From Lachnospiraceae bacterium (GTDB lineage Bacteria; Bacillota; Clostridia; Lachnospirales; Lachnospiraceae): DNA of 64,000 bases. Positions 13,401 through 31,560 of this stretch are shown here, piece by piece. Position 1 is the stretch's first letter. Each line of letters opens with the position of its first letter. The notes beneath the pieces were generated by a model. The model was not told the origin of the DNA, ran no database searches, and saw only the letters and a list, made by a program, of their open reading frames with translations. The translations under genes were made by a program, and so were the position numbers. The DNA is taken from NCBI GenBank assembly GCA_017441825.1, contig JAFRVD010000059.1:1-64000 (forward strand), given 5' to 3'.

Positions 13401-16400
13401 ATATGGGGCCATCAGCTTTATGACGATAATCTGGAGACGTCCTTCTACCGGTACGATCCGGCAGCAAACGTTCTCAGGATCAGGTATCCGGAGGACTGGA
13501 GCGGCGCTTACTCAGGATCGACACTTCCCATTATAAGAAACTATATCGACGGGCTCACCATCATCGTAGAGAACAATCTTCCGCTGAAAACAACGTCCAC
13601 TGAAACGGGCTCTGCCATGATCGAAAGCCATGCGGACCTGACCATCAGGAGTGCGACTCTTGAAAATAACGAGCCCGCACGCCTGACCCTTTACGGAAAC
13701 AACGTGGCGGACGGTATCTACATGTTTGGAAACAGTACCCTGACGCTGGATCATGTGAAGCTGTATATATACGATACGCCTTGCTGTCTGGTAGGAAATA
13801 GTTACGGAGGAACACCTGCACTGGAGATCCAGTCCTCCAAGGTATCGCTTAATGCAACGGATAGAGTTGTTTCAAACTTTTGCGATATCACCCTTACGGG
13901 CTGCGAGATCGCTACTCCCGGCGTGACGATCGTAGGAACCTACTTCGAGTCCGGTGGCCTCCCGGCCAAATATGCCTACATAACGAACGAATTCTATGAT
14001 TTGTATATCAATGGCCAGCGGCTGAATGACGGCAATCGGAGCCTGTTTGGCGGCGCGATGGTCTACGACCCGGAGACAGAAACCCTCACACTGGACGGCT
14101 CCGGCGGCGATATTGAGTGCGCTATGCTGCCGTTTATAGAAAACCATATCGATGGGCTGACGATCAATGTGACCGGCGACACCAGGATCTTATGCGAATG
14201 CGAGGGGGATCATGCGATCATCGAAAGCGATAAAGATATAACCATCAACAGTGCAGTCAAGGAGGGAGGCACCCGGTACCGCCTGTTTTTGAGAGGACGT
14301 TGTGTGGTTGGGGACTATAGTATTCCACACTATGCGACAGGCGGCATCTGGATGACAGACGGGAGCGTCCTGAAGCTCTCGAACACGAATCTCTGTATCT
14401 ATGGCACTTACTCCCTGAGGGGCATCAGAGGAGCTGAACTCAGGGTCTTAAGCTCCACGGTGGATATTTCAGGTTATGACGGCACGGCTGTATTCGGATT
14501 TACAAAAGGCATCACATGTACGGACTGCCGGATCGTAAAGCCGGAAGAGTATCAGATCGATAACGGTCAGATCAAACAAAAATATTATGCGAATTATAAC
14601 GGTGCCGGCACCGTAGTGATCTATCCGAACGGCACCAGCTATGAAGGATATTACCTTACGCTGGGCGACACCAGGGTGACCAGTGAAAACAAAGACGATA
14701 TCCTGGGCGACGGTAGTGCGAGCTATGATCCGCTGACCAGAACGCTGACCATTAAAAATCTGGATCTTGAGGGCACACTTTATGCGGATACCCTCGATCT
14801 GAACCTGGTCGTGAACGGCAATGTGAGATTCTATGACATGCTCGGGAGATCCAGAGGCTATGGCATTTACATTGAGGACGGGTCGCTGAACTATTCGGGG
14901 TACGGCACACTCACCGCGGTCGGTATCAGCGGCGGTATCCGTGCAGATAACGGCATTACGATCACGACGACCGAAACGACCTCGGGCGGCGGAACTGTAA
15001 CTGCACAGGAATACGCCAATACCAGCGCTTCTCTTTCTAAAGAAGGTATGTATTCGCCCAACGGCGATATCACCATCAACGGAGGAAAGATCAACGTCAG
15101 CGGCGCCTTCGGTATCCGTGTGGGCAGCGGAAAGAGCCTGAACATCACAGACGGCAAAGTGATTGCCCATGGCGAGACTTCGGCGATCCGGTTCACCGAT
15201 GGCTCCTTCAATCTGGACAGGACGCTGTGGATCAATGAACCTCAAGGCGCGCGGACCGGCAACGGAGACATCTATCTCGGTTCGGACATCGTCAAGGATC
15301 TGGTCATCGGCAAGGCCGTCACGTATACAGTGAAGTTTGACGGAAACGGCCAGGTCGTAGTGATTCCTTACCAGTATCTGCATTACGGGGAAAAAATAGA
15401 ACAGCCCGAAAATCCGACCTATCAGGGATGGGCCTTTGGCGGCTGGTACACGGAGGCGGCGTGCATCAATGAGTATGATTTTGATACGCCGGTAACGGCG
15501 GACATCACGCTGTACGCGAAGTGGACCCGGATCACATGGACCGTCACGTTTGATGCGAACGGCCACGGTACGGCTCCTGCGGCCCAGACGGTGGAATACG
15601 GCGGAACAGCAACACGGCCCACGGATCCCACTGAAACAGGCTGGATCTTCGGCGGCTGGTACAAAGAGGCGGAATGCAGGAATAAATTTGATTTCAGCGC
15701 GATTGTTTGGGGCAACATCACGCTGTATGCGAAGTGGACGCAGATCCCATATACAGTGACCTTCAACGTGAACGGCCACGGTACGGCTCCGGATCCCCAG
15801 ACGGTAGGGTACGGCGGGAAAGCGACACGGCCCGAGGATCCTGTTGCGGAAGGCTGGGAATTCGGCGGCTGGTACAAAGAGCCGGCCTGCACGACGCTGT
15901 TCAGCTTCGATACGATCGTGACGGAAGATATCACAGTGTACGCGAAATGGATACGGATCACGTTCGTTGTCGGATTCAACGCAAACGGCCACGGTACGGC
16001 ACCGGATACCCAGACGGTAGAGTACGGCGGAAAAGCGGTGAAACCTCAGGATCCTGTTGCTGAAGGCTGGACTTTCGGCGGCTGGTATACGGAAGCAGCC
16101 TGCACGACACCGTATGACTTCAACGCGTCTGTCATGTCAGACCTGATCCTGTACGCGAAGTGGACGGAGGACGTGACGCTTACGCTGACCTTCAAACACA
16201 ACTGCGAGTTCTCGAGCAATATTGCACTGCACTATATCGTACCGCAGTCCGAGCTCCAGGGGTACAGCAACATTAAGCTGTATATCCAGATGGAGAAATA
16301 TGCGGAAAGTGCGAGTACGCCGACCCTGCAGGAGTACACGATCACAAAGTGGACCGAGTACAAGAGCGGAAGCACGCTGTATCACGAGTTCGTCTTCCCG

Positions 16401-17117
16401 GGCATCTTCGCGGCGGAGATGGGGAATCAGATCTACGCCACGATCGTGGCGGAAAAAGACGGCGTGGAATACAGGTCGCAGGCAGACGTATACAGCATCA
16501 AGGCATACGCATACAACCGTCTTGCCAAGACGGATTCCGCTACGTTCCGGACGCTTCTTGTGGACATGCTGAACTACGGTGCGGCGGCGCAGATCCATTT
16601 CAAGAAGAACGCGGCGAATCCGGTGAACGCTGACCTGACTGCAGAGCAGAAAGCGTACGGGACACAGACAGATCCGGAGCTCTTTGACAGTGAGAGCACT
16701 GTGACGCTTCCGGGTGCAACGGCACAAATCAACGGTAAGAACCTTGTCTTTGACTCGAGCGTATTCCTTCGGTACCGGATGGCTTTCGCGGAAGGCCAGG
16801 ACATGAGCAAGGTGAAGATCAAGTTTACCTACGTCAATAGGAAGAACGAAACGAAGACGCAGACAGTAAAGGCTTCGAAATTCGGAACCAGCGGATCGTA
16901 TTATACGGCGGACTGCACGATCATCATTCCGTCGGATATGAGATGCGTAGTCAGCGCGACGATCTATGACGGAAGCACACCTATCAGCGACACCCTGAAT
17001 TACAGTATCGAGACGTATGTGTATAACCGACTGCAGAGTTCGACCAGCGCGACCTTTAAGACGCTGATCATGCAGCTGATGAAGTACGGAATCTCTACGG
17101 AGAGACATTTCCAGTGA
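10401..17117 (+). CDS. Giant secreted repeat protein: BspA-like LRR, six ~210-residue modules, four InlB-type repeats, shared C-terminal domain
   Basis: The open frame gives 2,238 residues. A signal peptide (I-L-S-L-L-L-S-L-V-M-I-F-S-L-L ... N-S-L-A-A) is followed by: an acidic Glu/Pro-rich stalk (about 45-150); BspA/TpLRR leucine-rich repeats (157-362); six related modules beginning near 367, 580, 778, 996, 1198 and 1416 (motif Y-x-L-x-I-x-G-x-x-x-x-x-x-N, then Y-D-P-x-T-x-T-L and I-D-G-L-T-I); four InlB/Listeria-Bacteroides repeats (1642-1924); and a 310-residue C-terminal block. There is no LPxTG, SLH or dockerin. A surface adhesin or polymer-binding role is likely. The start is problematic: the ATG at 10423 has an ideal AGAAGGAGA site but is out of frame by one base. 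The in-frame ATG at 10401 has a weak site. Confidence 0.8.
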   Translation: MYRRRIFYEKNTKKILSLLLSLVMIFSLLPVNSLAAEADTVIQEETEYTASIEEETEEEAALPGEPAEEEVTASPEPAEENRPVLPEEPAEEETLPPEEPAEEELLPEEPEEEELLLPEEPDEPVIELSPEPVQELLLPEEEKAAEPADMKDAGEVASGTCGDSANWVLTDDGLLTITGSGKIANYDASNNRTPWYDYKAQIMRVDMADTITRVGNYAFWTCSSIQEIHLSSGLESIGMHAFRNCSSLTSIVIPGGCSTTGGYAFTQCFNLSRVTIREGVESISFGCFQDCSSLTKITVPASVTEVGSEVFIRSGLTEITFLGNAPAFDDLAFNGATAAAYYPADDATWTADVRQNYGGTITWVPSVDCDLYILGTGITDSNLSGVMGDSLFYTYEPITKVLHLRGAYTMTADDTPYFILNKGVEGLTIQMDGTVVINGPNDVMEDDEITHLILNKDTTIRSKEVNNQLLLSGGGVGFTTGIAVNDGAELTLDQADLYIASVTYGLIGGGGETGTSELFVRDGTKAMIEGYWGAVVNFRGGLSWTQNMKITEPEGYTYSNGSICKSNGTTVASFVMIMPYYYLVVEGVIVNDANRDDILGNGVFSFDGKYTLTVNGNYTGGQDVLIDSERLTLIIAGSGTLSNISSSDYTALIRSTGDVFITGRINLKHENNASDNSYGIHISNTSRLVVSNFLSVRNVAYGLAGADDRWEQTLEMYGANVNIESFNTAVSGFDGGIIKEDCEYVWPAYTTVQDGTMGLDSIIGFEPLKNVQITNFDAYDLIIDGSRVYAGNMDDIRSAGVFSFDPETNTLSVSGTYAPDAVWALNSYNRFQPIIDNSIDGLTIILNGDTTLTSHLENYSSFTPVINSTGALTIKGASSLEKPKLKLTALSASFTFDGIHISGGKLTLKNIDLEIGESGNLPRNALLGDGTSKCSLYCDDICARLITGHSGAAVSGFNGGISLQNCWNVSPGGLPYSGAFMSDGSPAAGVIIVDKAYELYIWGHQLYDDNLETSFYRYDPAANVLRIRYPEDWSGAYSGSTLPIIRNYIDGLTIIVENNLPLKTTSTETGSAMIESHADLTIRSATLENNEPARLTLYGNNVADGIYMFGNSTLTLDHVKLYIYDTPCCLVGNSYGGTPALEIQSSKVSLNATDRVVSNFCDITLTGCEIATPGVTIVGTYFESGGLPAKYAYITNEFYDLYINGQRLNDGNRSLFGGAMVYDPETETLTLDGSGGDIECAMLPFIENHIDGLTINVTGDTRILCECEGDHAIIESDKDITINSAVKEGGTRYRLFLRGRCVVGDYSIPHYATGGIWMTDGSVLKLSNTNLCIYGTYSLRGIRGAELRVLSSTVDISGYDGTAVFGFTKGITCTDCRIVKPEEYQIDNGQIKQKYYANYNGAGTVVIYPNGTSYEGYYLTLGDTRVTSENKDDILGDGSASYDPLTRTLTIKNLDLEGTLYADTLDLNLVVNGNVRFYDMLGRSRGYGIYIEDGSLNYSGYGTLTAVGISGGIRADNGITITTTETTSGGGTVTAQEYANTSASLSKEGMYSPNGDITINGGKINVSGAFGIRVGSGKSLNITDGKVIAHGETSAIRFTDGSFNLDRTLWINEPQGARTGNGDIYLGSDIVKDLVIGKAVTYTVKFDGNGQVVVIPYQYLHYGEKIEQPENPTYQGWAFGGWYTEAACINEYDFDTPVTADITLYAKWTRITWTVTFDANGHGTAPAAQTVEYGGTATRPTDPTETGWIFGGWYKEAECRNKFDFSAIVWGNITLYAKWTQIPYTVTFNVNGHGTAPDPQTVGYGGKATRPEDPVAEGWEFGGWYKEPACTTLFSFDTIVTEDITVYAKWIRITFVVGFNANGHGTAPDTQTVEYGGKAVKPQDPVAEGWTFGGWYTEAACTTPYDFNASVMSDLILYAKWTEDVTLTLTFKHNCEFSSNIALHYIVPQSELQGYSNIKLYIQMEKYAESASTPTLQEYTITKWTEYKSGSTLYHEFVFPGIFAAEMGNQIYATIVAEKDGVEYRSQADVYSIKAYAYNRLAKTDSATFRTLLVDMLNYGAAAQIHFKKNAANPVNADLTAEQKAYGTQTDPELFDSESTVTLPGATAQINGKNLVFDSSVFLRYRMAFAEGQDMSKVKIKFTYVNRKNETKTQTVKASKFGTSGSYYTADCTIIIPSDMRCVVSATIYDGSTPISDTLNYSIETYVYNRLQSSTSATFKTLIMQLMKYGISTERHFQ
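10423..10432 (+). other. Start codon and A7 tract out of frame with the giant gene
   Basis: The ATG at 10423-10425 is preceded by AGAAGGAGA at good spacing and followed by seven A residues. Translation from it stops after 15 codons. With one more A it would read M-K-K-N-T-K-K-I-L-S-L-L-L-S. That matches the N-terminus of the neighbouring giant protein (M-K-K-S-I-R-K-L-L-S-L-L-L-A), which starts at 17131. The natural gene start is therefore probably here, and the tract is a single-base contraction, a sequencing error, or a slippage/phase-variation site. Confidence 0.65.
15325..16167 (+). repeat. Four in-frame InlB B-type repeats with a 213-nt period
   Basis: Four copies begin at about 15325, 15538, 15751 and 15964, each 71 codons. 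Each has the pattern T-F-D-A-N-G-H-G-T-A-P, a Y-G-G-x-A-x-x-P strand, F-G-G-W-Y-x-E-x-x-C, and L-Y-A-K-W-T. These are the beta-grasp-like repeats known from internalin B and many clostridial and Bacteroides surface proteins (Listeria-Bacteroides repeat). Copies 2 to 4 are most alike; copy 1 has diverged (Q-V-V-V-I-P-Y for the H-G-T-A-P segment). Confidence 0.85.
16185..17117 (+). repeat. 311-codon C-terminal block, copy 1
   Basis: This segment and 21694-22626 are the same length (933 nt including stop) and highly similar in DNA and protein, with identical runs well over 25 nt around 16790-16820 and 22302-22332. Each block is itself a tandem pair of about 130-residue units. The first unit ends Y-A-Y-N-R-L...T-L-L-V-D-M-L-N-Y-G-A-A-A-Q-x-H-F; the second ends Y-V-Y-N-R-L...A-T-F-K-T-L-I-x-x-x-x-K-Y-G-I-S. 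The recent sharing suggests duplication or gene conversion between the two neighbours. Confidence 0.85.
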
Positions 17118-17130
17118 AAGGAACAGCTTT

Positions 17131-20100
17131 ATGAAGAAGAGTATCAGAAAATTGCTCAGCCTGCTGCTGGCGTTATGTCTTCTTTTGAGCCATGCGCCGC
17201 TTACAGCTTTTGCTGAAGAAGGCGGAGAAGCGGAACAAACCATGACAGTCCCGGCAGAAGAGCCGGGTACTGAAGAAGCACCGGCAGAGACAGACGCTGA
17301 GGCGGCCCCTCGGGAAGAGAAAGGCACTGAAGCCGTCCCGGAAACGGACGGAACGAAGGCGGATGAGTGCTTTACCAGGCAGCCGTCGGGCGGCACCGTT
17401 GCACCCGGGGGATCTGTTAAAATCAGCTGGGAAACCAGCTTCGTACCTGTCAAGGTCGAAGTCGGTATTTACCTCGTGCCCGGCGACCCGTCGTACTTTT
17501 CGGCCAGGCATACTATTGAAACCGGCCTCGCGCAGAGCATGAGCGATACGCTGACATATGATGAAGTGGATCCCGACATGCTTTTTAACGGCGGCTACTG
17601 GTACGTCAGGGCTTATTATACGGTGTCAACGTGGACGTATTATATTGACAGCAACGCAATCGATTTTACCCGTGAGCGCCGCCAGTTTACCGAGCAGCCT
17701 CAGGGCGGCACCGTCAACCCGGAAGGGTCGATCACGATCAGCTGGAAGACGAATTTCGTTCCGGTCAAGGTGGAAGTCGGGGAGCGTATAGAATTATCAG
17801 GCGAGCCGACGTACCATGTCACGCATACCATCACAAGCGGCCTCAGCAAAAGCATGAGCGATACGCTCAGGTATGATGAGATCGGCACGTTTTTAACGGG
17901 CGACTGGTTCGTCAGGGCGTATTACAAAGACGCTGAAAGCACTTACATAAGCAGCCAGTACTTTGATATCAACTGTGTGGACCGCAAGTTTACCAAACAG
18001 CCTCAGGATATCACTGTAGTTCCGGACGGGACGGCCGCGTTCAGCTGGACGACCAACTTTACCCCGGTCAAGGTGGAGATCAGATACTGGTGGGGTACGG
18101 ATTCACCGACCGATGCCCTCCATGAAACGCTGACTGAAGGCCTCAGCAAAAGCATGAGCTATTCTCTGCCTTATGACAGCGTGAGTTCTCTGGCTACTTC
18201 ATGGTATGTCAAGGCTTTTTACGGGGATGGGACCCTCTCTTTTGCAGCGAGTAAGAGTTTCCTGATCAATAAAACGGAGCGCCGGTTCACGGAGAAGCCG
18301 CAGAGCGGGACCGTCTATCCCAGAGGCTCGTTTAAGATCAGCTGGACCACCAACTATATTCCCGTGAAGATCGACATCGGTTACTACAACGGCCTCACAT
18401 GGGTCTCCGTGAGGACCCTCACGGACGTCCTTAACAAGTCGATGAGCTATACGATGGGCTATGATGCCCTGACGACCTCCGATAAGTGGCAGGTCAGGGC
18501 GTATTACGCCGACTACGCCACGAATTATGTATCAAGCGGAAACTTTTCCATAGAGAAAAAAGACGTTTATGACTGCGGCGATGACCTTACCGCCACCCTG
18601 GATGATGACGGCGTCCTAACGCTTACAGGCTCCGGCGAGATGTACGATTACAGTACGCTGAACCCGGCGCCGTGGTATGACTCACGCATTTACGTCAAGA
18701 AGATCGTGATCCCCGAGGGAGTGACCTACATTGGCGAATATGCTTTCAACGGCTGCTCAGCGCTTAAGGACGTCACCATTCCGACCAGCGTGAAATACAT
18801 TGGCGAGAAGGCCTTCTACGGTTGCAACAGCATTGATTACGTGCGCTACGACGGCATGAAAGCCCAGTGGTTCTATATCGACATCGACGGCGGCAATGCG
18901 GGCCTTGATAATGCGTATTTCGTTTATATTTACCGTTATCAGCAGATCGGCAGCACCGGCGTTTGGTGGAAGCTGGAAGGTGCGAGCAACAGGCTGACGA
19001 TCTCCGGTGCCAAGGCGATCCACGTCACCGCACCGTGGCAGGAATGGGGCGATTATATTACCGAGATCCACGTGGATTACGGGGATATCATCTGGGAAGA
19101 AGCGTTCCGGGACTGCCCGAACGTGAAAAAGGTCTGGCTTCCGGGCGACATTCAGAAGATCGACTACGACGCGTTCGCTGTCTGCACAAAGATCACCGAC
19201 GTGTACTTTGACGGCCTCCAACGCGACTGGGAAGATATCACGATCGAGTCCGGGAACACGCCGATCACGAACGCGACTCTCCATACCGCCCCGATTTATG
19301 AAATGCTGACCGACGATCTTTCCTGGACACTCGACGACGAAGGCCTCCTTACGATCTTCTATGACGACGGAAACATGGGCAGCGGGGAAGAGACGGATAT
19401 TCCCGATTATAAGAACATCGGCGAGGCACCCTGGTATGAATACAAAGACAATATTAAATCAGTCCGCATTGAAAGCGGAGTGACGGGCATCGGAGCGTAC
19501 GCCTTCAACGGATGTTCGAATCTCAGGACCCTCGAGATCGCGGACACCGTGACCATTATCGGCAACTTTGCTTTTTCGGGATGCAACTGGCTGGAAGATT
19601 TCACATTCCCGAGTGATCTTTTTTCCATTGGCGCCTATGCTTTCCAGGCCTGCAATATGCTGGAGATCCTCCGCCTGCCGGACAGCATCGTGTCCCTGGG
19701 TACGGGCGTCTTCTATAACTGCGGAAATCTGGAAAAGATCTGGCTCCCCGGCGAAATTACCGAGATCCCGATCAATTTCTGTACCAACTGTTATCTGCTG
19801 GATCTCGTCAGTATCCCAGTGTCTGTAAAAACGGTCAAAAAGAATGCTTTCTACGGCTGCGATTCGCTGACGGATAACTCGAGCTATGTTTACTACGGCG
19901 GCACCTCCGCACAGTGGGCGGCCATCACTGTAGACAGCGGCAACGAATGCCTCACAAATGCCGGAAGAATCCACTTTATTACCGAGGAGCTCCGTATTGA
20001 CGCAGTGAACTTCCCGGACGCCAATTTCCGCGGTTATGTATCCTTGAACTTTGACACGGATCACAGCGGCTGGCTGAATGAAGAGGAGATCGCGAACGCG

Positions 20101-22626
20101 GTCATTATCTACTGCGGAGCTCAGGATATCGAAACGCTCAAGGGAATCGAATTCTTTACGGAGCTCACGGAACTGGAATGTGAAGACAACCTCCTTGAAG
20201 AACTGGATCTCTCTGCCAACACGAAGCTCACGCATCTGGACTGCTCGTATAACAGCCTGACAGCGCTTTCGCTAGACGATGTGCCGAATATTAGCTATCT
20301 CGACTGTACCGGCAACCAGCTGACGTGGCTCGACGTAAGCGGGCTCAGCCTCAGGAAACTGTACTGCAGCAGTAATCCTTTAGGAGGCTTAAACCTCGGC
20401 AGCCAGCCGGAGCTGACCTTGCTGCACTGCTACGGCACGGCCGGTGCGGACGGCGAGACGAAACCGCTGAAGGTTCTGGACGTTCGGAGGAGCCAGTACC
20501 TGCTGGACGCCTATATGAACGGTGAATGCAGTGTTCCGGATTGGGGCTACCATTATGAAGGCCCGCTGGGCGGCGTACTTTTTGTGGACGTCGGGACGGA
20601 GGTCCTGACACCGGACTGCATCTCTATCGACGTGACGCATTTCCCGGACTACTGGTTCCGTGAGTATATTGCGGAATACATAGACAAGAACCTGACCCAG
20701 TGGCTCACTCCGGAGGAGATCGCTGAAGCCAAAGAGATCAATACCATGTATAACGAGGACTATGAGCAGATCGAAAGCTTCGAGGGTATTGAGTACTTCA
20801 CGGAGCTTGAGAAATTCTCTGTTCCCAGGTGTCCCGGCCTCACGAGCATCGACTTCAGCAAGAATACGAAACTCTATCACATTTGGCTGTCTAATACGGG
20901 CATCACTGTGCTCGATGTGAGCCAGTTGACACTCCATGAGATGCTCTGTGAATGGAACCCGCTTCAGACATTGACGCTTGGCGATCAGCCGATGCTCTGG
21001 TATCTGTTCTGTGCCGGCAATGACCTCGATGAACTGGATATTTCCGGATGCCCGCTTCTGCTTAAGGCGTATCACTTTGGTTCGAAGCTGGAAGGAACCA
21101 ATACAGGGGGATTCGAGTATGTGGAATACCGGATCATAAAAGACGATTCGATGACCAATTTTCTGTGTGTAAATACGGATACTGCCCTCATCGGCACAGA
21201 CAATTATTTCCAGTGCGGGGACAGCGTCACCTGGTCGTTTGAGGACGGCGTACTGACGATCTCCGGCACGGGAGATATGTGGTCGTTCTGGGAGACGTAC
21301 CCGGGTTTCTACGAGCTGCGGGACGTAATTACGTCGATCGTGGTCGAAAGCGGCGTGACGGACATCGGCGCATTTGCGTTCTTTGAGCTCAGCGAGGTCA
21401 CGCAGGTAACGCTTCCGGAGGGACTCACGAAGCTGGACACCGGCGCGTTCAATTATTGCTGCAGCCTGACGAGCATAACGATCCCGGCCAGTATGACAGA
21501 AATTGGCTACAGCGCGTTCGAAGAGTGTACGGGCCTCACGGAGATCAGGTTCCTGGGAAGTGCGCCTTCGTTCCGGATGGCCGCCTTCAGAAGGGTGGTC
21601 GCAGAAGCGTACTATCCCGTGGATGATCCGACCTGGACTGATGACGTCAGACAGGACTACGGCGGATCAATCACGTGGATCTCCTATCTTCCGCTGACGT
21701 TCAAGCATAACTGCGAGTTTGCGAGCAACATCGCGCTTCACTACATCGTGCCGCAGGCTGAGCTTAGCGGGTTTGACAGCTTCAAGCTGGTCGTGGAGAT
21801 GGAGAAGTACGAAGTGGGCGCGACCGAGCCCACACTTAAAGAGTACACGATCACGAAGTGGTCCGAATACACTTTAGGCGGCGAACCTTATTACCAGTTC
21901 ATCTTCCCCGGTATCTTTGCTGCGGAGATGGGCAACCAGATCTACGCCACAGTTGTGGCTGAAAAGGGCAGCACAGAGTACAGGTCGGCAGTCGACGTGT
22001 ACAGCGTAAAGGATTACGCGTATAACCGCCTGGGGAGGACAGCGTCGTCTACTTACCGGACGTTCCTCGTAGACATGCTGAATTACGGCGCCGCGGCGCA
22101 GACGCATTTCAACAAGAATGCGGCGAACCCTGTAAATGCGGAGCTCACGGCAGAGCAGCAGGCGTACGGGACGCAGGAAGCCCCGGTACTTGCAGATCAT
22201 GAGGATCCGGTGCCGAATCCTGGAGCGACGGCAGAAATCAACGGCAAGAACCTCGTATTTGACTCGAGCGTATTCCTGCGGTACCGGATGGCATTCGCGG
22301 AAGGCCAGGACATGAGCAAGGTGAAGATCATATTCACCTATGTCAACAGAAAGGGCGAAACAAAGACACAGACGGTAAAGGCTTCGAAATTCAAGACCAG
22401 CGGGTCGTATTACACGGCGGACTGTACGATCATTATCCCGTCGGAAATGAGGTGTGTGGTCAGCGCAACGATCTACGACGGAAGCACTCCTATCAGCAAC
22501 ACGCTGAACTACAGCATCGAGACGTATGTGTACAACCGGCTTATGAGTTCGACCAGTGCGACCTATAAGGCGCTGATCCTTGCGATGATCAAGTACGGGA
22601 TCTCTGCGGAGAACCACTTCTCATAA
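17131..22626 (+). CDS. Large secreted LRR protein with Ig-like repeats and the shared C-terminal domain
   Basis: This encodes 1,831 residues with a clear signal peptide (M-K-K-S-I-R-K-L-L-S-L-L-L-A ... L-T-A-F-A-E-E). After an acidic linker come four repeats of about 100 residues starting near 81, 186, 287 and 386 (F-T-x-Q-P-x-x-G-T-V...S-W-x-T-N-F-x-P-V-K-V-E). BspA-like LRRs follow (about 480-955). Next are two units that each join an EF-hand-like segment (first copy D-T-D-H-S-G-W-L-N-E-E-E-I) to internalin-style LRRs (L-T-x-L-x-C-x-x-N-x-L), from about 956 and 1165. One more BspA block (1362-1520) precedes the 311-residue C-terminal domain shared with the upstream protein. There is no sorting signal. 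Only 13 nt separate it from the upstream gene, so they are probably one operon. The likely role is surface binding. Confidence 0.88.
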   Translation: MKKSIRKLLSLLLALCLLLSHAPLTAFAEEGGEAEQTMTVPAEEPGTEEAPAETDAEAAPREEKGTEAVPETDGTKADECFTRQPSGGTVAPGGSVKISWETSFVPVKVEVGIYLVPGDPSYFSARHTIETGLAQSMSDTLTYDEVDPDMLFNGGYWYVRAYYTVSTWTYYIDSNAIDFTRERRQFTEQPQGGTVNPEGSITISWKTNFVPVKVEVGERIELSGEPTYHVTHTITSGLSKSMSDTLRYDEIGTFLTGDWFVRAYYKDAESTYISSQYFDINCVDRKFTKQPQDITVVPDGTAAFSWTTNFTPVKVEIRYWWGTDSPTDALHETLTEGLSKSMSYSLPYDSVSSLATSWYVKAFYGDGTLSFAASKSFLINKTERRFTEKPQSGTVYPRGSFKISWTTNYIPVKIDIGYYNGLTWVSVRTLTDVLNKSMSYTMGYDALTTSDKWQVRAYYADYATNYVSSGNFSIEKKDVYDCGDDLTATLDDDGVLTLTGSGEMYDYSTLNPAPWYDSRIYVKKIVIPEGVTYIGEYAFNGCSALKDVTIPTSVKYIGEKAFYGCNSIDYVRYDGMKAQWFYIDIDGGNAGLDNAYFVYIYRYQQIGSTGVWWKLEGASNRLTISGAKAIHVTAPWQEWGDYITEIHVDYGDIIWEEAFRDCPNVKKVWLPGDIQKIDYDAFAVCTKITDVYFDGLQRDWEDITIESGNTPITNATLHTAPIYEMLTDDLSWTLDDEGLLTIFYDDGNMGSGEETDIPDYKNIGEAPWYEYKDNIKSVRIESGVTGIGAYAFNGCSNLRTLEIADTVTIIGNFAFSGCNWLEDFTFPSDLFSIGAYAFQACNMLEILRLPDSIVSLGTGVFYNCGNLEKIWLPGEITEIPINFCTNCYLLDLVSIPVSVKTVKKNAFYGCDSLTDNSSYVYYGGTSAQWAAITVDSGNECLTNAGRIHFITEELRIDAVNFPDANFRGYVSLNFDTDHSGWLNEEEIANAVIIYCGAQDIETLKGIEFFTELTELECEDNLLEELDLSANTKLTHLDCSYNSLTALSLDDVPNISYLDCTGNQLTWLDVSGLSLRKLYCSSNPLGGLNLGSQPELTLLHCYGTAGADGETKPLKVLDVRRSQYLLDAYMNGECSVPDWGYHYEGPLGGVLFVDVGTEVLTPDCISIDVTHFPDYWFREYIAEYIDKNLTQWLTPEEIAEAKEINTMYNEDYEQIESFEGIEYFTELEKFSVPRCPGLTSIDFSKNTKLYHIWLSNTGITVLDVSQLTLHEMLCEWNPLQTLTLGDQPMLWYLFCAGNDLDELDISGCPLLLKAYHFGSKLEGTNTGGFEYVEYRIIKDDSMTNFLCVNTDTALIGTDNYFQCGDSVTWSFEDGVLTISGTGDMWSFWETYPGFYELRDVITSIVVESGVTDIGAFAFFELSEVTQVTLPEGLTKLDTGAFNYCCSLTSITIPASMTEIGYSAFEECTGLTEIRFLGSAPSFRMAAFRRVVAEAYYPVDDPTWTDDVRQDYGGSITWISYLPLTFKHNCEFASNIALHYIVPQAELSGFDSFKLVVEMEKYEVGATEPTLKEYTITKWSEYTLGGEPYYQFIFPGIFAAEMGNQIYATVVAEKGSTEYRSAVDVYSVKDYAYNRLGRTASSTYRTFLVDMLNYGAAAQTHFNKNAANPVNAELTAEQQAYGTQEAPVLADHEDPVPNPGATAEINGKNLVFDSSVFLRYRMAFAEGQDMSKVKIIFTYVNRKGETKTQTVKASKFKTSGSYYTADCTIIIPSEMRCVVSATIYDGSTPISNTLNYSIETYVYNRLMSSTSATYKALILAMIKYGISAENHFS
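21694..22626 (+). repeat. 311-codon C-terminal block, copy 2
   Basis: This is the partner of 16185-17117: same length and same internal two-unit structure. Differences cluster in the hydrophilic linker between the two units (around 22160-22230). Confidence 0.85.
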
Positions 22627-22713: not shown

Positions 22714-22742
22714 TTGACAAACACGACGGAGTTCGCTATTAT
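22714..22742 (+). promoter_or_regulatory. Strong promoter of the RiPP-like cassette
   Basis: A consensus TTGACA (22714-22719) and TATTAT (22737-22742) are separated by exactly 17 bp, about 80 bp before the small peptide gene. It is among the best sigma-A matches in the window, consistent with high expression of a precursor peptide. Confidence 0.8.
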
Positions 22743-22823
22743 TGTTACATAATATTAAACATAATAGTCATTATGGGGAAAACGTAGCATAAAGACCATA
22801 AGGAAAAAGAGGGGATATCGGAT

Positions 22824-22928
22824 ATGAAGGAAAGATATGAATCAGCGGATATGGAAGTCATCGCGTTCGTGCATGAGGATATCATCACGACGAGCGGTGA
22901 TTTCGACGACGACGAGTGGGATGATTAA
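22824..22928 (+). CDS. Small acidic peptide, candidate RiPP precursor
   Basis: This encodes 34 residues beginning M-K-E-R-Y-E-S-A-D-M-E-V-I-A-F and ending in the strongly acidic G-D-F-D-D-D-E-W-D-D. The ATG at 22824 has an AGAGGGG site. The leader-like half resembles precursors recognised by PqqD/RRE proteins, where Firmicutes lasso leaders carry Y-x-x-P-x-L; here it is Y-E-S-A-D-M. The middle reads E-D-I-I-T-T-S-G: a Thr two residues before a Gly is the usual leader-core border in lasso precursors, which would make the core the last ten residues. That assignment is inference. The gene is followed by a hairpin, then a PqqD-like gene and an ABC exporter, which is the main support for calling it a modified-peptide precursor. 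Confidence 0.7.
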   Translation: MKERYESADMEVIAFVHEDIITTSGDFDDDEWDD

Positions 22929-22959
22929 TTCGATAGATGCATACGGATCTGCAGCATGA

Positions 22960-22997
22960 AAAAGAGGTACTGGGCGTTCGGTTCCGGTACCTCTTTT
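22960..22997 (+). terminator. Hairpin between precursor and pqqD-like gene
   Basis: AAAAGAGGTAC (22960-22970) pairs perfectly with GTACCTCTTTT (22987-22997) across a 16-nt loop. It ends in a T4 tract, so it is probably a partial terminator or RNA-stabilising stem that lets the precursor mRNA exceed that of the downstream genes, as in many peptide clusters. Confidence 0.75.
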
Positions 22998-23020
22998 CGT
23001 CATAAAGGAGCGTTTAGACC

Positions 23021-23281
23021 ATGAAATTGAACAAAGAATTCCTTCTCCACGAAAGCCGCGGGGAAGCCATCCTGGTCCCCACCGGGAAAGCGGATTTTTC
23101 CGGCGTGGTCCGCGGTAATAAAACGTTTGGGGCAGTAGTGGAGCTCCTTAAAAAGGATACGGATGAGGAAAAGATCGTTTCAGCCATGAAGGAGCGCTTT
23201 GACGCGCCGGAGGGAGCGATCGAAGCCGACGTTGCCAGGATCTTAAGGGAGCTTCGCGAAATCGGGGCCCTCTGTGAATAA
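23021..23281 (+). CDS. PqqD-family peptide chaperone (RRE domain)
   Basis: This 86-residue protein has the layout of stand-alone PqqD/lasso B1-type RiPP recognition elements: an N-terminal beta part (F-L-L-H-E-S-R-G-E-A-I-L-V-P-T-G), then F-S-G-V-V-R-G-N-K-T-F-G-A-V-V-E-L-L, a helix-turn region with K-K-D-T-D-E-E-K-I-V, and a last helix ending L-R-E-I-G-A-L. Such proteins bind the leader of a precursor peptide and present it to modifying enzymes. An AAAGGAG site precedes the ATG. No leader peptidase (lasso B2), cyclase (asparagine-synthetase-like) or radical SAM maturase lies beside it. The enzyme it serves must be elsewhere, or this cassette works in a reduced form. Confidence 0.85.
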   Translation: MKLNKEFLLHESRGEAILVPTGKADFSGVVRGNKTFGAVVELLKKDTDEEKIVSAMKERFDAPEGAIEADVARILRELREIGALCE

Positions 23282-23310
23282 CAGCTTCTCTTAAAGAGAG
23301 GGTGGAAAAA

Positions 23311-25026
23311 ATGAGGAACAGTGCCGTCCGCTGGCTCTTAGCCGTGCCGGGGAAGAAAAAGCTGTATATCCTTGCTTTAGCCGTGGTGCAGGCGCTCCAC
23401 GGCGGTTCCGGCGTGCTTTACGCACTCCTCCTCAGGGAGATCGTCGATGCCGCCTCCGCCCGCAGCAGCGCCGGCTTTACACGCGGCATCGTCCTGATCG
23501 TCCTTCTCGTCACAGCCCAGCTCGCCCTTCGCGCAGTAATCCGATGGCTCACGGAGCTTTCCAAGGCCACCTTTGAAAACTGCTTCAAGGGGAGGCTCAT
23601 GGATACGCTGCTGCACCGGGACTACCTGAGAGTCAGCAGCATGCACTCCGGCGAGTGGCTGAACCGCCTCACAAACGACGCCGTGGTAGTGGCGAACGGC
23701 TACGTAGAGATCCTGCCTGGTCTTGCCGGCATGATCGTCAAGCTCATCAGCGCGTTTGTGATGATCCTTGTCCTGGAGCCGCGCTTTGCGGCGATCTTTA
23801 TCCCCGTGGGAGCGGTCCTCGTCCTGTTCACCTGGTTCTTCCGGAGAGCCATGAAGCGGCTCCATAAAAACGTACAGGAAGCGGACGGGCGGCTCAGGGT
23901 ATTCCTGCAGGAACGGATCGGGAGCCTCTTTATGATCCGCTCTTTTGCCGCGGAAGCGCAGACGGAGAAGGAGACGGCAGCCAAAATGCAGGAGCATAAG
24001 GCCGCCCGTATGCGCCGCAATCTGTATTCAAATCTTGCAAACATCGGCTTTGGCGCCGCCCAGAGTGGCCTGTATCTTTTAGGCGTCATCTGGTGTGGGT
24101 ACGGGATCCTGAAGGGGACCGTAAGCTTCGGCACCCTGACGGCCATCACCCAGCTCATTTCACAGATCCAGTCCCCGTTCGCAAACATCACAGGTTATCT
24201 GCCCCGCTGGTACGCCATGCTTGCCAGTGCGGAGCGGATGATGGAGGCGGAGGTCTTTCCGGGAGATCCGGAAGAGCCGAAACCGCTTGACAAGCTTGTT
24301 GATTTCTATGAAAATGAGCTTGAGAGCTTCGGTCTCTCCGATGCTTCGTTTACGTATCTGCCCATAGCGGAAAGCCTTGATGAAGCCGGCCGGGAAAGAA
24401 TGCCGGAGGTGCTTACGGACATATCTCTTGAGATCCGGAAAGGGGAATACGTCGCATTTACCGGTCAGAGCGGATGCGGCAAGTCCACAGCGCTCAAGCT
24501 TCTCATGTGTGTCTACTCCCCGGACAGCGGGGAACGCTATTATAAAAGCCGGGACGGGAAGCGCGGCAGCCTGACTTCTGCCGACCGCCGCCTGTTCGCG
24601 TACGTCCCTCAGGGGAACGCGCTGATGAACGGCACCATCCGTGAAGTGGTGAGCTTCGCGGAGCCTGCGGCCGCCGATGACGACGCCCGCCTCGCGGAGG
24701 CGCTCCGCATTGCCTGCGCCTATGATTTTGTTTCCGAGCTTGAGCAGGGCGTGGATACCCTTCTGGGCGAGCGCGGGACCGGCCTTTCCGAAGGACAGAT
24801 GCAGCGCATCGCCATCGCGCGGGCCGTCTTCTCGGGAAGCCCTGTGCTGCTTCTGGACGAAGCGACCAGCGCTCTCGACACGGGCACGGAACGCCGGCTC
24901 CTGGAAAATCTCCGCGATATGACGGATAAGACGGTCGTCATCGTCACCCATCGTCCGGCAGCGCTCACGATCTGCGACCGTGTGCTGGAGTTTACGGAGC
25001 AGGGCGTGGCGAGCCGCAATGCATGA
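23311..25026 (+). CDS. ABC exporter, probably for the modified peptide
   Basis: This is a 571-residue half-transporter with an N-terminal membrane domain (about 1-310) and a C-terminal ATPase. Walker A is G-Q-S-G-C-G-K-S-T, the signature is L-S-E-G-Q-M-Q-R-I-A-I-A-R-A, Walker B is V-L-L-L-D-E-A-T-S-A-L-D-T and the switch is V-T-H-R-P. All catalytic residues are present, so it should work as a homodimer. There is no N-terminal C39 peptidase, so it does not cut leaders itself. I chose the ATG at 23311, five bases after GAGAGGGTGG; the GTG at 23302 lies inside that site. It follows the PqqD-like gene by 29 nt and is the last cassette gene before a strong hairpin. Confidence 0.9.
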   Translation: MRNSAVRWLLAVPGKKKLYILALAVVQALHGGSGVLYALLLREIVDAASARSSAGFTRGIVLIVLLVTAQLALRAVIRWLTELSKATFENCFKGRLMDTLLHRDYLRVSSMHSGEWLNRLTNDAVVVANGYVEILPGLAGMIVKLISAFVMILVLEPRFAAIFIPVGAVLVLFTWFFRRAMKRLHKNVQEADGRLRVFLQERIGSLFMIRSFAAEAQTEKETAAKMQEHKAARMRRNLYSNLANIGFGAAQSGLYLLGVIWCGYGILKGTVSFGTLTAITQLISQIQSPFANITGYLPRWYAMLASAERMMEAEVFPGDPEEPKPLDKLVDFYENELESFGLSDASFTYLPIAESLDEAGRERMPEVLTDISLEIRKGEYVAFTGQSGCGKSTALKLLMCVYSPDSGERYYKSRDGKRGSLTSADRRLFAYVPQGNALMNGTIREVVSFAEPAAADDDARLAEALRIACAYDFVSELEQGVDTLLGERGTGLSEGQMQRIAIARAVFSGSPVLLLDEATSALDTGTERRLLENLRDMTDKTVVIVTHRPAALTICDRVLEFTEQGVASRNA

Positions 25027-25032
25027 ATTACG

Positions 25033-25077
25033 AGGCCTCGGAATGACGTGGGAGATCACGTCGTGCCGGGGCCTTTA
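25033..25077 (+). terminator. Strong hairpin after the ABC exporter
   Basis: An 18-bp stem (25033-25050 with 25057-25074; two G-T wobbles, one mismatch) with a 6-nt loop is followed by TTTAA. It separates the peptide cassette from the glycosidase pair. Confidence 0.75.
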
Positions 25078-25125
25078 ACGTCGGTTCGGGCCGACCCATA
25101 AAATTACGACAGGGAGGTATATGCC

Positions 25126-27516
25126 ATGAACATTGCTGTTATAGGAGCGGCAGGGAAAGCCGGCAGCCTGATCGCAGCCGAAGCGGAAAGCCGCGGGCAC
25201 AGGGTGACGGCCATCGTGAGGCCGGGGTCTCAGGACCGGCTGCCGCCGGGGTACACGGTCCTCGAAAAGAGCCTCTTTGACCTTGCGCCGGAGGACCTTA
25301 AGGGGTTCGACGCAGTCATCGACGCGTTCGGGACAGCGTCTTACGGGCCGGGGGCGGAGAAGCTGCACGTCACGTCCGTTGAGCACCTGATCACGGTGAT
25401 GGAGAAGCTTCCGGACGTCCGTCTCCTCATGGTGGGCGGCGCGGGAAGCCTTTATACGGATGAGACGGAAAAGGGCCTCGTCCTGGACACCATCCCGGAA
25501 GCGTACCGGGCGGTTCCGGCTGCCATGGCGGAAGCCTTTGAAAAGCTGAAAAAGAGCAATATCAACTGGACGTATTTCAGCCCGGCGCCATCGTTCCTCC
25601 CGAACGGGCCCCGTACCGGGAAATATATCCTGAGTACAGATTACAGGATCCTGAATTCCATGGGGGAAGCGGCCATCTCTTATGCGGACTATGCCGCAGC
25701 CATGGTGGACGAGCTTACGGAACGCCGGTTTGTTAAGAAGAGATTTACCGCCGTATCGGACACGACCGACGTCCAGGGGGATATCAGCAACAACCTGTTC
25801 AACATCGCCACCACGCCTTTTACAAGGCGCGGCGCGTTCTTCGGCGTATACACGTCGAGGGCCGGCTTCTCCCGGGGCGGGCTGGGCTTTGCCTCGGGAA
25901 GGCTCATGATCCAGTCAAGGAGAGGCGGCACCACCAAGGCCCAGGGACGGGACTTTGCTGGCATCTACCCGGTATATAACGGCGTCAAGGTTCCGTATGC
26001 CGTCCATACCACGGCATATGAGCTCACGCTGACCACCGCGTACGGAAAGATCACTCTCTGTTATCCGGAAAGCCGGCTGCTCTATATCAAGGGCGAAAAC
26101 GGGTTGTCTCTCCGGTTTGAGAAGAACATGGTCATCCATGAGGTCATGAAGCCCCGCCCGAAAGGCGCGTGGGAGCAGGTCCTCCGCTGGGTCGCGACCG
26201 CCGTTTATACGCCTTTAAAGGGCAATATAAAGATGGACGCACCGTGGCAGTGGGAGCGCCTTTCCACTCCCGTCGTAAAGGGTGAGATCTTCCCGGACGA
26301 AAGCGGTTCGTTCCTGCTTGCCGTGGAGGAGTTCCGTCACGCAGGCGCGGTCCGGGACAAGTACCCGACGTACGAGGAAGGCCTTCAGGACGCCCGCGCG
26401 GACTGGGAGGACTTCCGGGATCGGCTGCCGAAGCTCAGGGGACCCTTTGAAGAAAACAAGGATCGGGCTGCGTATCTCCTCTGGGCGTACCTTGTGGGCG
26501 CTTCGGGAAAGATCAGGCGGCCGATGATCTTCATGACCCCCTACGATATCGCCTCTTCCTGGCAGATGAGCCAGAACGCCGCGGCCCTCCGCAGCGATAT
26601 CGGCCTGTCCGCGGAGCTGCTCCTCAATATGACCGACATGCAGAGCCCGGACGGCCAGTTCCCGGATTTCTACGACGACGTCAAAGTGATGGGCCAGTGC
26701 ATCAAGCCGCCGGTCCAGGGCTGGGCGCTCAAGTGGATCATGAAGGACCACGACCTTAAACGTGAGATCCCCGAGGAAAAGCTCAGGACGATGTATGAGG
26801 GCTTCGGCCGCTGGGCCGACTGGTTCACGAACGTCCGGGACGACGATCATGACGGCATCCCGCAGTATGAGCACGGGGATGAGACCGGCGCCGATGACAG
26901 CAGCCTTTTCGAAAAGTCCAACGTGATCGACAGCCCGGACCTGTCTGCCTACCTCGTTCTTCTCTATGAGGCGCTCTGTGACCTTGCCGGCATGCTCGGG
27001 AAAGCAGAAGAAGCCGCAGACTGGAATGAACGTTCAAAGGAACTCCTTCGCAAAATGATCGCGAAGTTCTGGAACGGGAAGAAATTCGTCGCGTTTGTCC
27101 ATAAGACAGGAGAGGCCATCGACACCGGGAGCTTCATGCACTATATCCCGCTGATCCTCGGAAAACGCCTTCCGCAGGAGATCATTGACAGAATGGCCGC
27201 CGATCTTTCCGTTGAAGGCGGGCTCCTCACGTCGTACGGCTTTGCCAGTGAAGAGCTCATGAGCGACAACTTCAGAGCCTCCGGGTTTGCGAGAGGCTTT
27301 ATCCTTCCGCCGGTCAACACGTTCCTGATCACCGGCCTGTACGACTGCGGCAAGACGGAGCTTGCGAAGAAGGCCGCGGAGAGATACTGCAAGGCATTGA
27401 TCCGCTCCGACTTCAACCTGCTGCTCGACCCCACGAACATCGGTCCGGGCGGCTTTGGCTGCAGCTGGCCCGCCTGTGCCTATATGATCCTGGCCGACCT
27501 GGCCTCGAACTTTTAA
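25126..27516 (+). CDS. Fusion of an NAD(P)-binding SDR domain with an MGH1/GH63-like glycosidase domain
   Basis: This encodes 796 residues. Residues 1 to about 210 look like a complete atypical SDR/NmrA-type oxidoreductase: M-N-I-A-V-I-G-A-A-G-K-A-G-S-L-I, V-T-A-I-V-R-P-G, then I-S-Y-A-D-Y-A-A-A-M-V-D-E-L and R-F-T-A-V-S, where stand-alone relatives usually end. From about 218 the sequence aligns with the whole of the next gene product, an (alpha/alpha)6 glycosidase-like domain carrying D-D-D-H-D-G-I-P-Q-Y-E-H-G-D-E-T-G-A-D-D-S. That resembles the GH63/MGH1 motif H-G-N-D-S-G-W-D-N-S. There is no signal peptide, so action is cytosolic. The junction has no ATG with a ribosome site that would restore a separate glycosidase. 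The substrate is unknown. Confidence 0.8.
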   Translation: MNIAVIGAAGKAGSLIAAEAESRGHRVTAIVRPGSQDRLPPGYTVLEKSLFDLAPEDLKGFDAVIDAFGTASYGPGAEKLHVTSVEHLITVMEKLPDVRLLMVGGAGSLYTDETEKGLVLDTIPEAYRAVPAAMAEAFEKLKKSNINWTYFSPAPSFLPNGPRTGKYILSTDYRILNSMGEAAISYADYAAAMVDELTERRFVKKRFTAVSDTTDVQGDISNNLFNIATTPFTRRGAFFGVYTSRAGFSRGGLGFASGRLMIQSRRGGTTKAQGRDFAGIYPVYNGVKVPYAVHTTAYELTLTTAYGKITLCYPESRLLYIKGENGLSLRFEKNMVIHEVMKPRPKGAWEQVLRWVATAVYTPLKGNIKMDAPWQWERLSTPVVKGEIFPDESGSFLLAVEEFRHAGAVRDKYPTYEEGLQDARADWEDFRDRLPKLRGPFEENKDRAAYLLWAYLVGASGKIRRPMIFMTPYDIASSWQMSQNAAALRSDIGLSAELLLNMTDMQSPDGQFPDFYDDVKVMGQCIKPPVQGWALKWIMKDHDLKREIPEEKLRTMYEGFGRWADWFTNVRDDDHDGIPQYEHGDETGADDSSLFEKSNVIDSPDLSAYLVLLYEALCDLAGMLGKAEEAADWNERSKELLRKMIAKFWNGKKFVAFVHKTGEAIDTGSFMHYIPLILGKRLPQEIIDRMAADLSVEGGLLTSYGFASEELMSDNFRASGFARGFILPPVNTFLITGLYDCGKTELAKKAAERYCKALIRSDFNLLLDPTNIGPGGFGCSWPACAYMILADLASNF

Positions 27517-30540: not shown

Positions 30541-30591
30541 GTGCATCATCAGTCGAGGCTGAATGATTATATATTTCAGAGGAGGGAAACC

Positions 30592-31536
30592 ATGAAAATG
30601 ACAATGCAAAAATGGCTGGCTGTGCTGGCTGCGGCGCTTCTTTTAGTGTCGCTTACGGGATGCCTTTCGGTCACCGTGACGCCTGTTGATACGGCGGCGG
30701 AAGCAGAAGAGGATACGTCCATCCATCTGACGGATATGATGGGTCATGAAGTGACGCTTGAGAAGCCGGCGGAGCGCATTGTGGCGCTGTCCGCGGCGGA
30801 CTGCGAGATCGTTTATGCGTTAGGCGCGGGCGACCTTTTAGTCGGCAGAGGCGAATACTGCGATTATCCTGCGGAAGTGTACGACGTACCGTCCGTGGAA
30901 TCCGGCGGCAACACGAATATCGAGCAGATCCTGGCGCTCGACCCGGACGTTCTTGTCATGAGCAGCATGGCGCAGACCGAGGACCAGGTCAAACAGCTTG
31001 AGGACGCCGGCGTGGCTGTAGTTGTCAGCAATGCGGCGGACATCGAAGGCACGTACACCTCTATCGAGATCCTCGGCAAGCTTCTTGGCAAGGATGCCGA
31101 AGCAGAGACGATCATCTCCGATATGAAGGCCGCTTTTAAGGAGATCGAAGAGAACAAGCTGGACGGCGAGACCATCTACTTTGAAGTCTCTCCGCTCGAG
31201 TGGGGCCTCTGGACCGCCGGCAAGGGCACGTTCATGAACGAGATCGCTGAAATGATGGGCCTTAAGAACTGCTTCGACGACGTGGACGGCTGGGCACAGA
31301 TCTCCGAGGAGCAGGTCCTCGAAAGGAATCCGGACTACATCATGACCATCACGATGTACTGGGGCGAAGGACCCACACCGGAAGAAGAGATCATGTCCCG
31401 CGCCGGCTGGGAAAATGTGACCGCTGTCAAGAACGGCGCGATCCTGAACCTGCCGAACAACGAGCTTTCCCGTCCGGCTCCCAGGCTTGCGGATGGCGCG
31501 AAGCTGCTCTATGACTTTGTAATGCAGTATAAATAA
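30592..31536 (+). CDS. Periplasmic-type binding lipoprotein for iron-chelate or cobalamin import
   Basis: This encodes 314 residues from ATG 30592, preceded by GAGGAGGG. The signal peptide ends in lipobox L-T-G-C (about residues 21-24). The mature fold is the helical-backbone BtuF/FepB class: M-M-G-H-E-V-T-L-E-K-P-A-E-R-I-V-A-L, L-G-A-G-D-L-L-V-G-R-G, N-I-E-Q-I-L-A-L-D-P-D-V-L, and I-L-G-K-L-L-G. The ligand could be cobalamin, heme or a siderophore. No cobalamin riboswitch fits in the 51 nt upstream. The permease and ATPase follow in the same operon. Confidence 0.88.
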   Translation: MKMTMQKWLAVLAAALLLVSLTGCLSVTVTPVDTAAEAEEDTSIHLTDMMGHEVTLEKPAERIVALSAADCEIVYALGAGDLLVGRGEYCDYPAEVYDVPSVESGGNTNIEQILALDPDVLVMSSMAQTEDQVKQLEDAGVAVVVSNAADIEGTYTSIEILGKLLGKDAEAETIISDMKAAFKEIEENKLDGETIYFEVSPLEWGLWTAGKGTFMNEIAEMMGLKNCFDDVDGWAQISEEQVLERNPDYIMTITMYWGEGPTPEEEIMSRAGWENVTAVKNGAILNLPNNELSRPAPRLADGAKLLYDFVMQYK

Positions 31537-31560
31537 GCGGAACTGTTCGGCGGACGGACG

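Follow-up and report, generated by a model that had tools for sequence, protein, structure and literature searches.

We analyzed a 64,000-nucleotide stretch of a Lachnospiraceae genome assembly (contig JAFRVD010000059.1; the whole stretch is called the window) and focused on a locus in which the gene for a 34-residue peptide (22824-22928) is followed by genes for a stand-alone PqqD-like protein (23021-23281) and an intact ATP-binding cassette (ABC) exporter without a peptidase domain (23311-25026). This locus is probably the precursor, recognition element and exporter part (A, B and D) of a clostridial system for ribosomally synthesized and post-translationally modified peptides (RiPPs) that resembles the linear polyphosphorylated peptides (LPPs), with the other enzymes acting in trans or lost. 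According to the available text of the report on LPPs (PMC13381572, Nat Commun May 2026), these are made by lppAKBSDN of Paenibacillus alginolyticus, which encodes a precursor (LppA), a RiPP recognition element or RRE (LppB), an HprK-like kinase (LppK), a SipW-like peptidase (LppS), an MsbA-like exporter (LppD) and a nucleoside triphosphate (NTP) transferase (LppN). The window locus does not look like a maturase-free class or a lasso cluster, but like a clostridial LPP-like locus in reduced or dispersed form.

Leader peptides and their companion enzymes

The window peptide, MKERYESADMEVIAFVHEDIITTSGDFDDDEWDD, belongs to a family with the leader Y-E-x-P-x-x-E-V-x-x-F-x-x-E-D-V/I-I-T-T-S and variable cores. 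This leader also occurs in a peptide encoded beside a PqqD gene of a congeneric genome (locus L031), and a first profile made from these two peptides gave up to 7 matches in one genome at E ≤ 1. With refined leader profiles the family was found in 11 of 200 and then in 23 of 397 sampled genomes of the same taxonomic family; the window's own genome has three leader peptides, on contigs C33, C77 and C40. This recurrence, together with the position of the L031 peptide beside a PqqD gene, indicates that the window peptide is more than a chance reading frame. A sequence-only reading of this DNA had proposed a leader-core precursor with a stand-alone RRE and an exporter as its partners, which the same-leader family supports: the small reading frame recurs beside homologous PqqD genes not only in L031 but also in L123, L161 and L176.

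Across the aligned columns of 83 distinct peptides, Tyr5 is present in 76 of 77, Asp19 in 77 of 80 and Pro8 in 52 of 78. Ser24 is present in 75 of 75, an invariance that is partly built in, because the profile seeds were picked by eye and every seed had the serine. The two residues preceding Ser24 are Thr in 52 of 79 and 47 of 75 peptides. The same reading had suggested that the acidic peptide might bind metal. This found no support, as the cores of the family vary widely and are strongly acidic in some members only.

In loci of relatives, the PqqD and peptide genes are accompanied by genes for an HprK-like kinase, an S26/SipW-like peptidase, an NTP_transf_5 protein (PF14907) and an ABC exporter. 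With peptide and RRE added to these four, the complete set of six occurs in L132, L123 and L145; in L110 and L133 five of the six, without the NTP transferase, were seen within the stretch examined. The kinase profile could be aligned with HPr kinase 1ko7 in the region of the Walker motif (E 6e-4). The peptidase profile aligns with signal peptidase I (E 3e-4) and SEC11 (E 1e-3), and the GxSM serine, HR histidine and GD aspartate are invariant in a 6-row peptidase alignment. When thresholds of E up to 1e-12 for the peptidase profile and up to 1e-20 for the kinase profile were applied to the 397 genomes, 73 had peptidase matches and 87 had kinase matches, including 22 of the 23 peptide genomes in each case (p 7e-17 and 6e-15, respectively). 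Some of these 23 genomes supplied profile seeds; the 12 that were newly found in the 397-genome search supplied none, and all 12 carry both enzymes. The sole exception among the 23 is the window's own assembly. It consists of 94 contigs and, at 81.6%, ranks lowest of the 23 in completeness. Since kinase and peptidase genes are neighbors in many operons, one missing stretch of assembly could hide both.

In four genomes (G065, G167, G235 and G361) one gene encodes both the S26-type peptidase and the ABC exporter, and in two others (G115 and G146) the peptidase is joined to the PF14907 NTP transferase. These fusions suggest that cleavage is tied to export and to later modification. The fused genes are located as follows.

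Peptidase-exporter fusions: L108:4906-7191 (= L193:2906-5191), L188:3838-6195, L189:3793-5907, L190:1-2028
Peptidase-NTP transferase fusions: L191:3793-5538, L192:2296-3945

As a separate observation, reading frames with radical S-adenosylmethionine-like cysteine patterns were noticed by eye in some PqqD or LPP-like clusters, at L040:3056-4153, L042:6291-7421, L149:2868-3977 and L168:8609-9706.

Organization of the window locus

The features of the locus and its immediate surroundings, all on the + strand, are listed below.

17131..22626, +: giant secreted surface protein of 1831 amino acids, BspA-type with leucine-rich repeats, directly 5' of the peptide gene (Pfam, secreted-neighbor count)
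21694..22623, +: C-terminal domain of this surface protein, about 310 amino acids, with 78% identity to its tandem paralogue (16185-17114) and 40% identity to the surface protein 5' of the own-genome peptide gene on C77
22628..22700, +: hairpin after the surface-protein gene, likely a terminator (-39.4 kcal/mol, z -4.38)
22714..22742, +: sigma-70-type promoter match, TTGACA-17-TATTAT (11/12)
22824..22928, +: LppA-like precursor peptide, 34 amino acids (open reading frame, family profile)
22824..22895, +: conserved N-terminal part of the peptide, residues 1-24, with near-invariant Tyr5, Asp19 and Ser24 and with Ala in place of the usual Pro8 (family alignment)
22896..22925, +: variable acidic tail GDFDDDEWDD (translation)
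22955..23010, +: hairpin between the peptide and RRE genes, a putative attenuator or terminator (-24.1 kcal/mol, z -5.05, not equalled by any of 200 shuffles)
23021..23281, +: LppB-like stand-alone PqqD/RRE protein, 86 amino acids, Asn33 and Asp70 present (Pfam, alignments, structure model)
23311..25026, +: LppD-like ABC exporter, 571 amino acids, no peptidase domain (Pfam, motifs, relatives)
25026..25090, +: hairpin after the exporter gene, likely a terminator (-32.8 kcal/mol, z -4.38)

The three-gene layout given by the sequence-only reading was thus confirmed, as was its count of seven acidic residues among the ten at the C-terminal end of the peptide. Its consensus promoter stands as a match at 11 of 12 positions and is weak evidence on its own, because 3 such sites were observed in a scan of 2.7 kb where 1.1 were expected. 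The peptide gene lies about 200 bases 3' of the surface-protein gene and is preceded by a Shine-Dalgarno-like AGAGGGG at 22808-22814. As strong hairpins are predicted on either side of it, it is probably its own transcription unit with read-through into the PqqD and exporter genes. A search of the window against Rfam gave 0 matches. The PqqD-like protein matches Pfam PF05402 (E 2.9e-10), and 29 bases separate its gene from that of the exporter, which likely starts at ATG 23311, after AGAGAGGG, rather than at GTG 23302. The exporter matches ABC_membrane (3e-29) and ABC_tran (1e-25), has no peptidase domain among its Pfam matches and has intact nucleotide-binding motifs.

We scanned the named genomes for relatives of the exporter and obtained 35 loci, from which L185-L187 (28-35% identity) were dropped as other exporters. 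The remaining 32, mostly from rumen and gut Clostridia assemblies, have best-segment identities of 54-75%. Within the stretches examined, many of which end at contig edges, an RRE was found in 22 loci, a peptidase in 20, a kinase in 19, an NTP transferase in 22 and a leader peptide in 12. Kinase, RRE, peptidase and exporter are found together in 17 of the 32, while 9 have none of RRE, kinase and peptidase.

The RRE protein was compared with known structures by several routes. Asn33 and Asp70 are present in the window RRE and in 21 of 21 rows of the RRE alignment; they carry the same numbers as in LppB, and in the profile alignment both align with LppB (9x8z). The single sequence gave no RRE match among solved structures, and the 21-row profile retrieved lasso RREs and LppB. 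The structure model has a predicted local distance difference test score (pLDDT) of 90.7 and a fold like those of lasso RREs, including TbiB1. LppB 9x8z was not among the 50 matches listed in either structure search, run against entries up to April 2026, and we gave no weight to this absence. The modelled fold argues for peptide recognition; it does not tell LPP and lasso systems apart. Matches of the window RRE to the NCBIfam lasso RRE models are far below cut-off, and the RRE fold is common to several RiPP classes.

Comparison with known systems and alternative readings

The window locus looks as though it works like the A-B-D part of the LPP system. Its relatives carry the same set of genes (precursor, HprK-like kinase, stand-alone RRE, SipW-like peptidase, MsbA-like exporter and NTP transferase), and its family has a YxxP-type leader and variable cores, the window copy keeping the Tyr and having Ala in place of the Pro. 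The exporter is MsbA-like, the RRE is stand-alone with Asn33 and Asp70, and some relatives' loci lie, as judged by eye, near apparent capsule genes. There are also differences. Precursors of the window family are often multi-copy and scattered, and often lie 3' of secreted-protein genes; the peptidase is fused to another component in some relatives' genomes; and the window locus has no kinase, peptidase or NTP transferase. As the leader differs after YxxP and these three enzymes are missing from both locus and assembly, we did not file the locus as an LPP member.

According to the available text of PMC13381572, LppK phosphorylates Ser3 of the core, and LppS together with LppB removes the leader. 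Similarity of the gene sets suggests a comparable route for the window family. The RRE would bind the leader around Tyr5, and the HprK-like kinase would phosphorylate a serine, most likely Ser24 by analogy with the conserved phosphorylated LPP serine; we offer this residue as the likely site of phosphorylation. Under guidance by the RRE, a SipW/S26-type serine peptidase would then cut off the leader, with cleavage before or after Ser24 both possible, and the ABC exporter would release a short linear peptide. Kinase, peptidase and NTP transferase would act in trans from the part of the genome that is missing in the 82% assembly, which is the option we prefer, or would have been lost.

Several observations weigh against this interpretation. 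The published leader motif, YxxPxVLxHQxIxFETxxS, is absent from the window family, whose YExPxxEVxxFxxED(V/I)ITTS has, as compared by eye, no HQ and a different spacing. The window leader has Ala at position 8, where the family mostly has Pro, and the P-13A change in LppA weakens binding (PMC13381572, available text). The RRE family profile matches lasso TbiB1 (E 3e-6) better than LppB 9x8z (E 0.04). Profile searches of the window's own assembled genome, about 82% complete, found no strong kinase, SipW-like peptidase or NTP transferase: the S26 search gave a single, weak match (E 4e-7, C37), which is probably a housekeeping signal peptidase, and there was only a weak HprK match (E 2.7e-5, C65) of a kind common in relatives, and no match to PF14907. 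HprK matches at E 0.001 occur in 49 of 61 genomes and are mostly weak. Finally, 51 of the 73 peptidase genomes and 65 of the 87 kinase genomes have no leader-profile match, which suggests that these enzymes also act on other precursors or on undetected ones.

The sequence-only reading had left a choice between a maturase acting in trans, which is the option retained here, and a distinct class of exported acidic peptide. In the latter the RRE would pass the unmodified peptide to the exporter, and it would be secreted whole without kinase or protease. The window locus is intact and tidy, with good ribosome sites, a short RRE-exporter gap and complete exporter motifs, and two relatives (L169, which retains a kinase, and L181) also have RRE and exporter without a peptidase within the stretch examined. 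However, kinase and peptidase accompany the peptide in every peptide genome but the least complete one, and the conserved serine would require another reason, so that we regard a maturase-free class as unlikely. An RRE and exporter locus without a maturase need not represent a new class, since the genes of the partner enzymes can lie in other parts of the genome.

Alternatively, the locus may be decaying, with kinase, peptidase and NTP transferase deleted and the remainder on its way out. Many of the closest exporter relatives sit in fuller operons, the usual leader proline is lost in the window peptide, and the nine related loci without RRE, kinase and peptidase would fit such a course. In contrast, the frames of peptide, RRE and exporter are open with their key residues kept, and three leader peptides are maintained in the same genome, which makes decay improbable.

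The missing parts had also been named as the lasso B2 protease and cyclase. Paeninodin-like lasso systems, as far as the consulted sources describe them, do share an aromatic-xxP leader, a stand-alone RRE, an HprK-like kinase and an NTP transferase with the window family, and rumen lasso clusters likewise carry HPr kinase and nucleotidyltransferase (PMC7533575, in excerpt). However, a profile search for the B2 protease (PF13471) gave no match in the window's own genome; only 2 of 61 genomes passed its cut-off, with partial matches (positions 54-95 of 117) in frames of 464 and 471 amino acids. The companions found in relatives are those of the LPP set, including an S26-type peptidase. In spite of the lasso-type leader pattern and RRE fold, a lasso locus with B2 protease and cyclase acting from elsewhere is therefore very unlikely, although the cyclase PF00733 was not searched. 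In the excerpted text of PMC7470986, the discrete lasso RRE model of RRE-Finder retrieves almost 8,000 proteins, about 4,000 of them co-occurring with lasso enzymes; with half so accompanied, orphan-looking RREs are common. Likeness to SynChlorMet ScmC (TIGR04249) and to the HprK-related kinases A/B is weak: the kinase-like protein matches ScmC at E 3e-11 and 8e-8, far below the curated cut-offs, and these systems were compared by the kinase alone.

Secreted neighbors and anchored proteins with core-like tails

The clostridial branch offers testable clues to the role of LPPs in its secreted-protein neighbors, same-tail anchored proteins and peptidase fusions. Thirty of 65 peptides lie directly 3' of a same-strand secreted gene of at least 300 residues, compared with 31 of 386 control genes (odds ratio 9.8, p 8e-13), with secretion called by a simple hydrophobicity rule of our own. 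The 65 scorable peptides are those left of the 83 when 8 that lie at contig edges and 10 whose upstream gene is cut are excluded; the controls are other genes of the same loci, 386 being left after 108 edge and 15 cut genes were dropped. The window peptide is one of the 30, and the other 35 have no such neighbor. In genome G296, where 10 peptides were found, all 7 of those examined in their loci come after a gene of 406-565 residues.

The C-terminal domain of about 310 residues shared by the two surface proteins of the window also turns up, often with weak similarity, in surface proteins encoded 5' of other peptide genes. It was found in only 4 of 61 genomes (G000, G009, G012 and G021), all with peptide matches. 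The link is not strict, as copies on C21 and C31 of the same genome have no adjoining peptide gene in the stretches examined. The structure model of the domain has a mean pLDDT of 52.9 and was not used for a fold search. The two giant surface proteins themselves (10401-17117 and 17131-22626) are in tandem, with C-terminal domains that are 78% identical and that each appear to be an internal tandem repeat.

Small membrane-anchored proteins beside the peptides can end nearly like a peptide core of the same genome, as in G021 (EVDEDGWTTIIVKP and ETDEDGWTVIIVKP) and G011 (GEILLPEVP and GDILMPEVP). With a set of 17 such proteins, the observed tail similarity was reached in none of 20000 label shuffles; to this set L127, L035, L110 and L072 had been added by hand (L035, L127 and L110 after their tails were seen), and the rule-picked L059, L097:7079 and L146 had been dropped from it. 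For the 16 rule-picked proteins alone, with a rule itself written after examples were seen, the score was reached in 5 of 20000 shuffles, in 14 of 20000 without two near-identical proteins, and in 932 of 20000 when the two best pairs were also removed. In G115, G063, G362, G249 and G157 the highest scores within a genome are low, and with the loss seen on removing the best pairs this indicates that the effect rests on a few strong pairs. A shared hydrophobic-Pro tail motif, a regular expression devised after inspection, was not used: it occurs in 5 of 16 anchored proteins versus 18 of 543 controls (p 2e-4), but in only 5 of 83 peptide cores (p 0.21). The stalk proteins or lipoproteins whose C-terminal tails closely resemble the LPP-like core of the same genome are those of L072, L082, L113, L035 with L060, and L097.

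A surface role for the peptides, suggested by the neighboring genes, is speculative. One tentative possibility is a matched pair, in which the leader would send a short core to kinase, peptidase and export, a nearby anchored stalk would display nearly the same tail, and the neighboring large secreted protein would bind either. The RiPP would then act not as an antibiotic but in soluble, phosphorylated form, as a competitor or a signal for a docking system on the cell surface. The locus in the window would be a version that has the surface protein and the peptide and lacks the anchored twin. A DEWDD-stop pattern (at most 1 mismatch) occurs once in the window's own genome, at the peptide itself, and the best core-like tail among the open reading frames of the window, GDADEVEY, is unconvincing.

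Searches of the open-licence literature with the leader strings or the LPP name retrieved PMC13381572 alone; those on related systems retrieved it again and otherwise unrelated papers, and those on the surface-protein link gave nothing relevant. The main text of PMC13381572, as available, does not contain 'clostridi', 'lachnospir', 'surface protein' or 'leucine-rich'. The leader motif, the placement after secreted-protein genes, the peptidase fusions and the anchored core-like tails were not found in print in these searches; the last three, together with the recurrence of the C-terminal domain in surface proteins 5' of peptide genes, seem to be new.

Other genes of the window were noted in passing. 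Near its start, at 3000-6585, are two more ABC proteins, 24% and 27% identical to the LppD-like exporter. Genes resembling a siderophore or cobalamin ABC importer (lipoprotein, permease and ATPase), named by inspection alone, lie at 30541-33356. The single reading frame at 25126-27516 encodes both an NAD(P)H-binding domain (PF13460), at the N-terminal end, and a glycoside-hydrolase-like domain (PF22422); this combination looks unusual.

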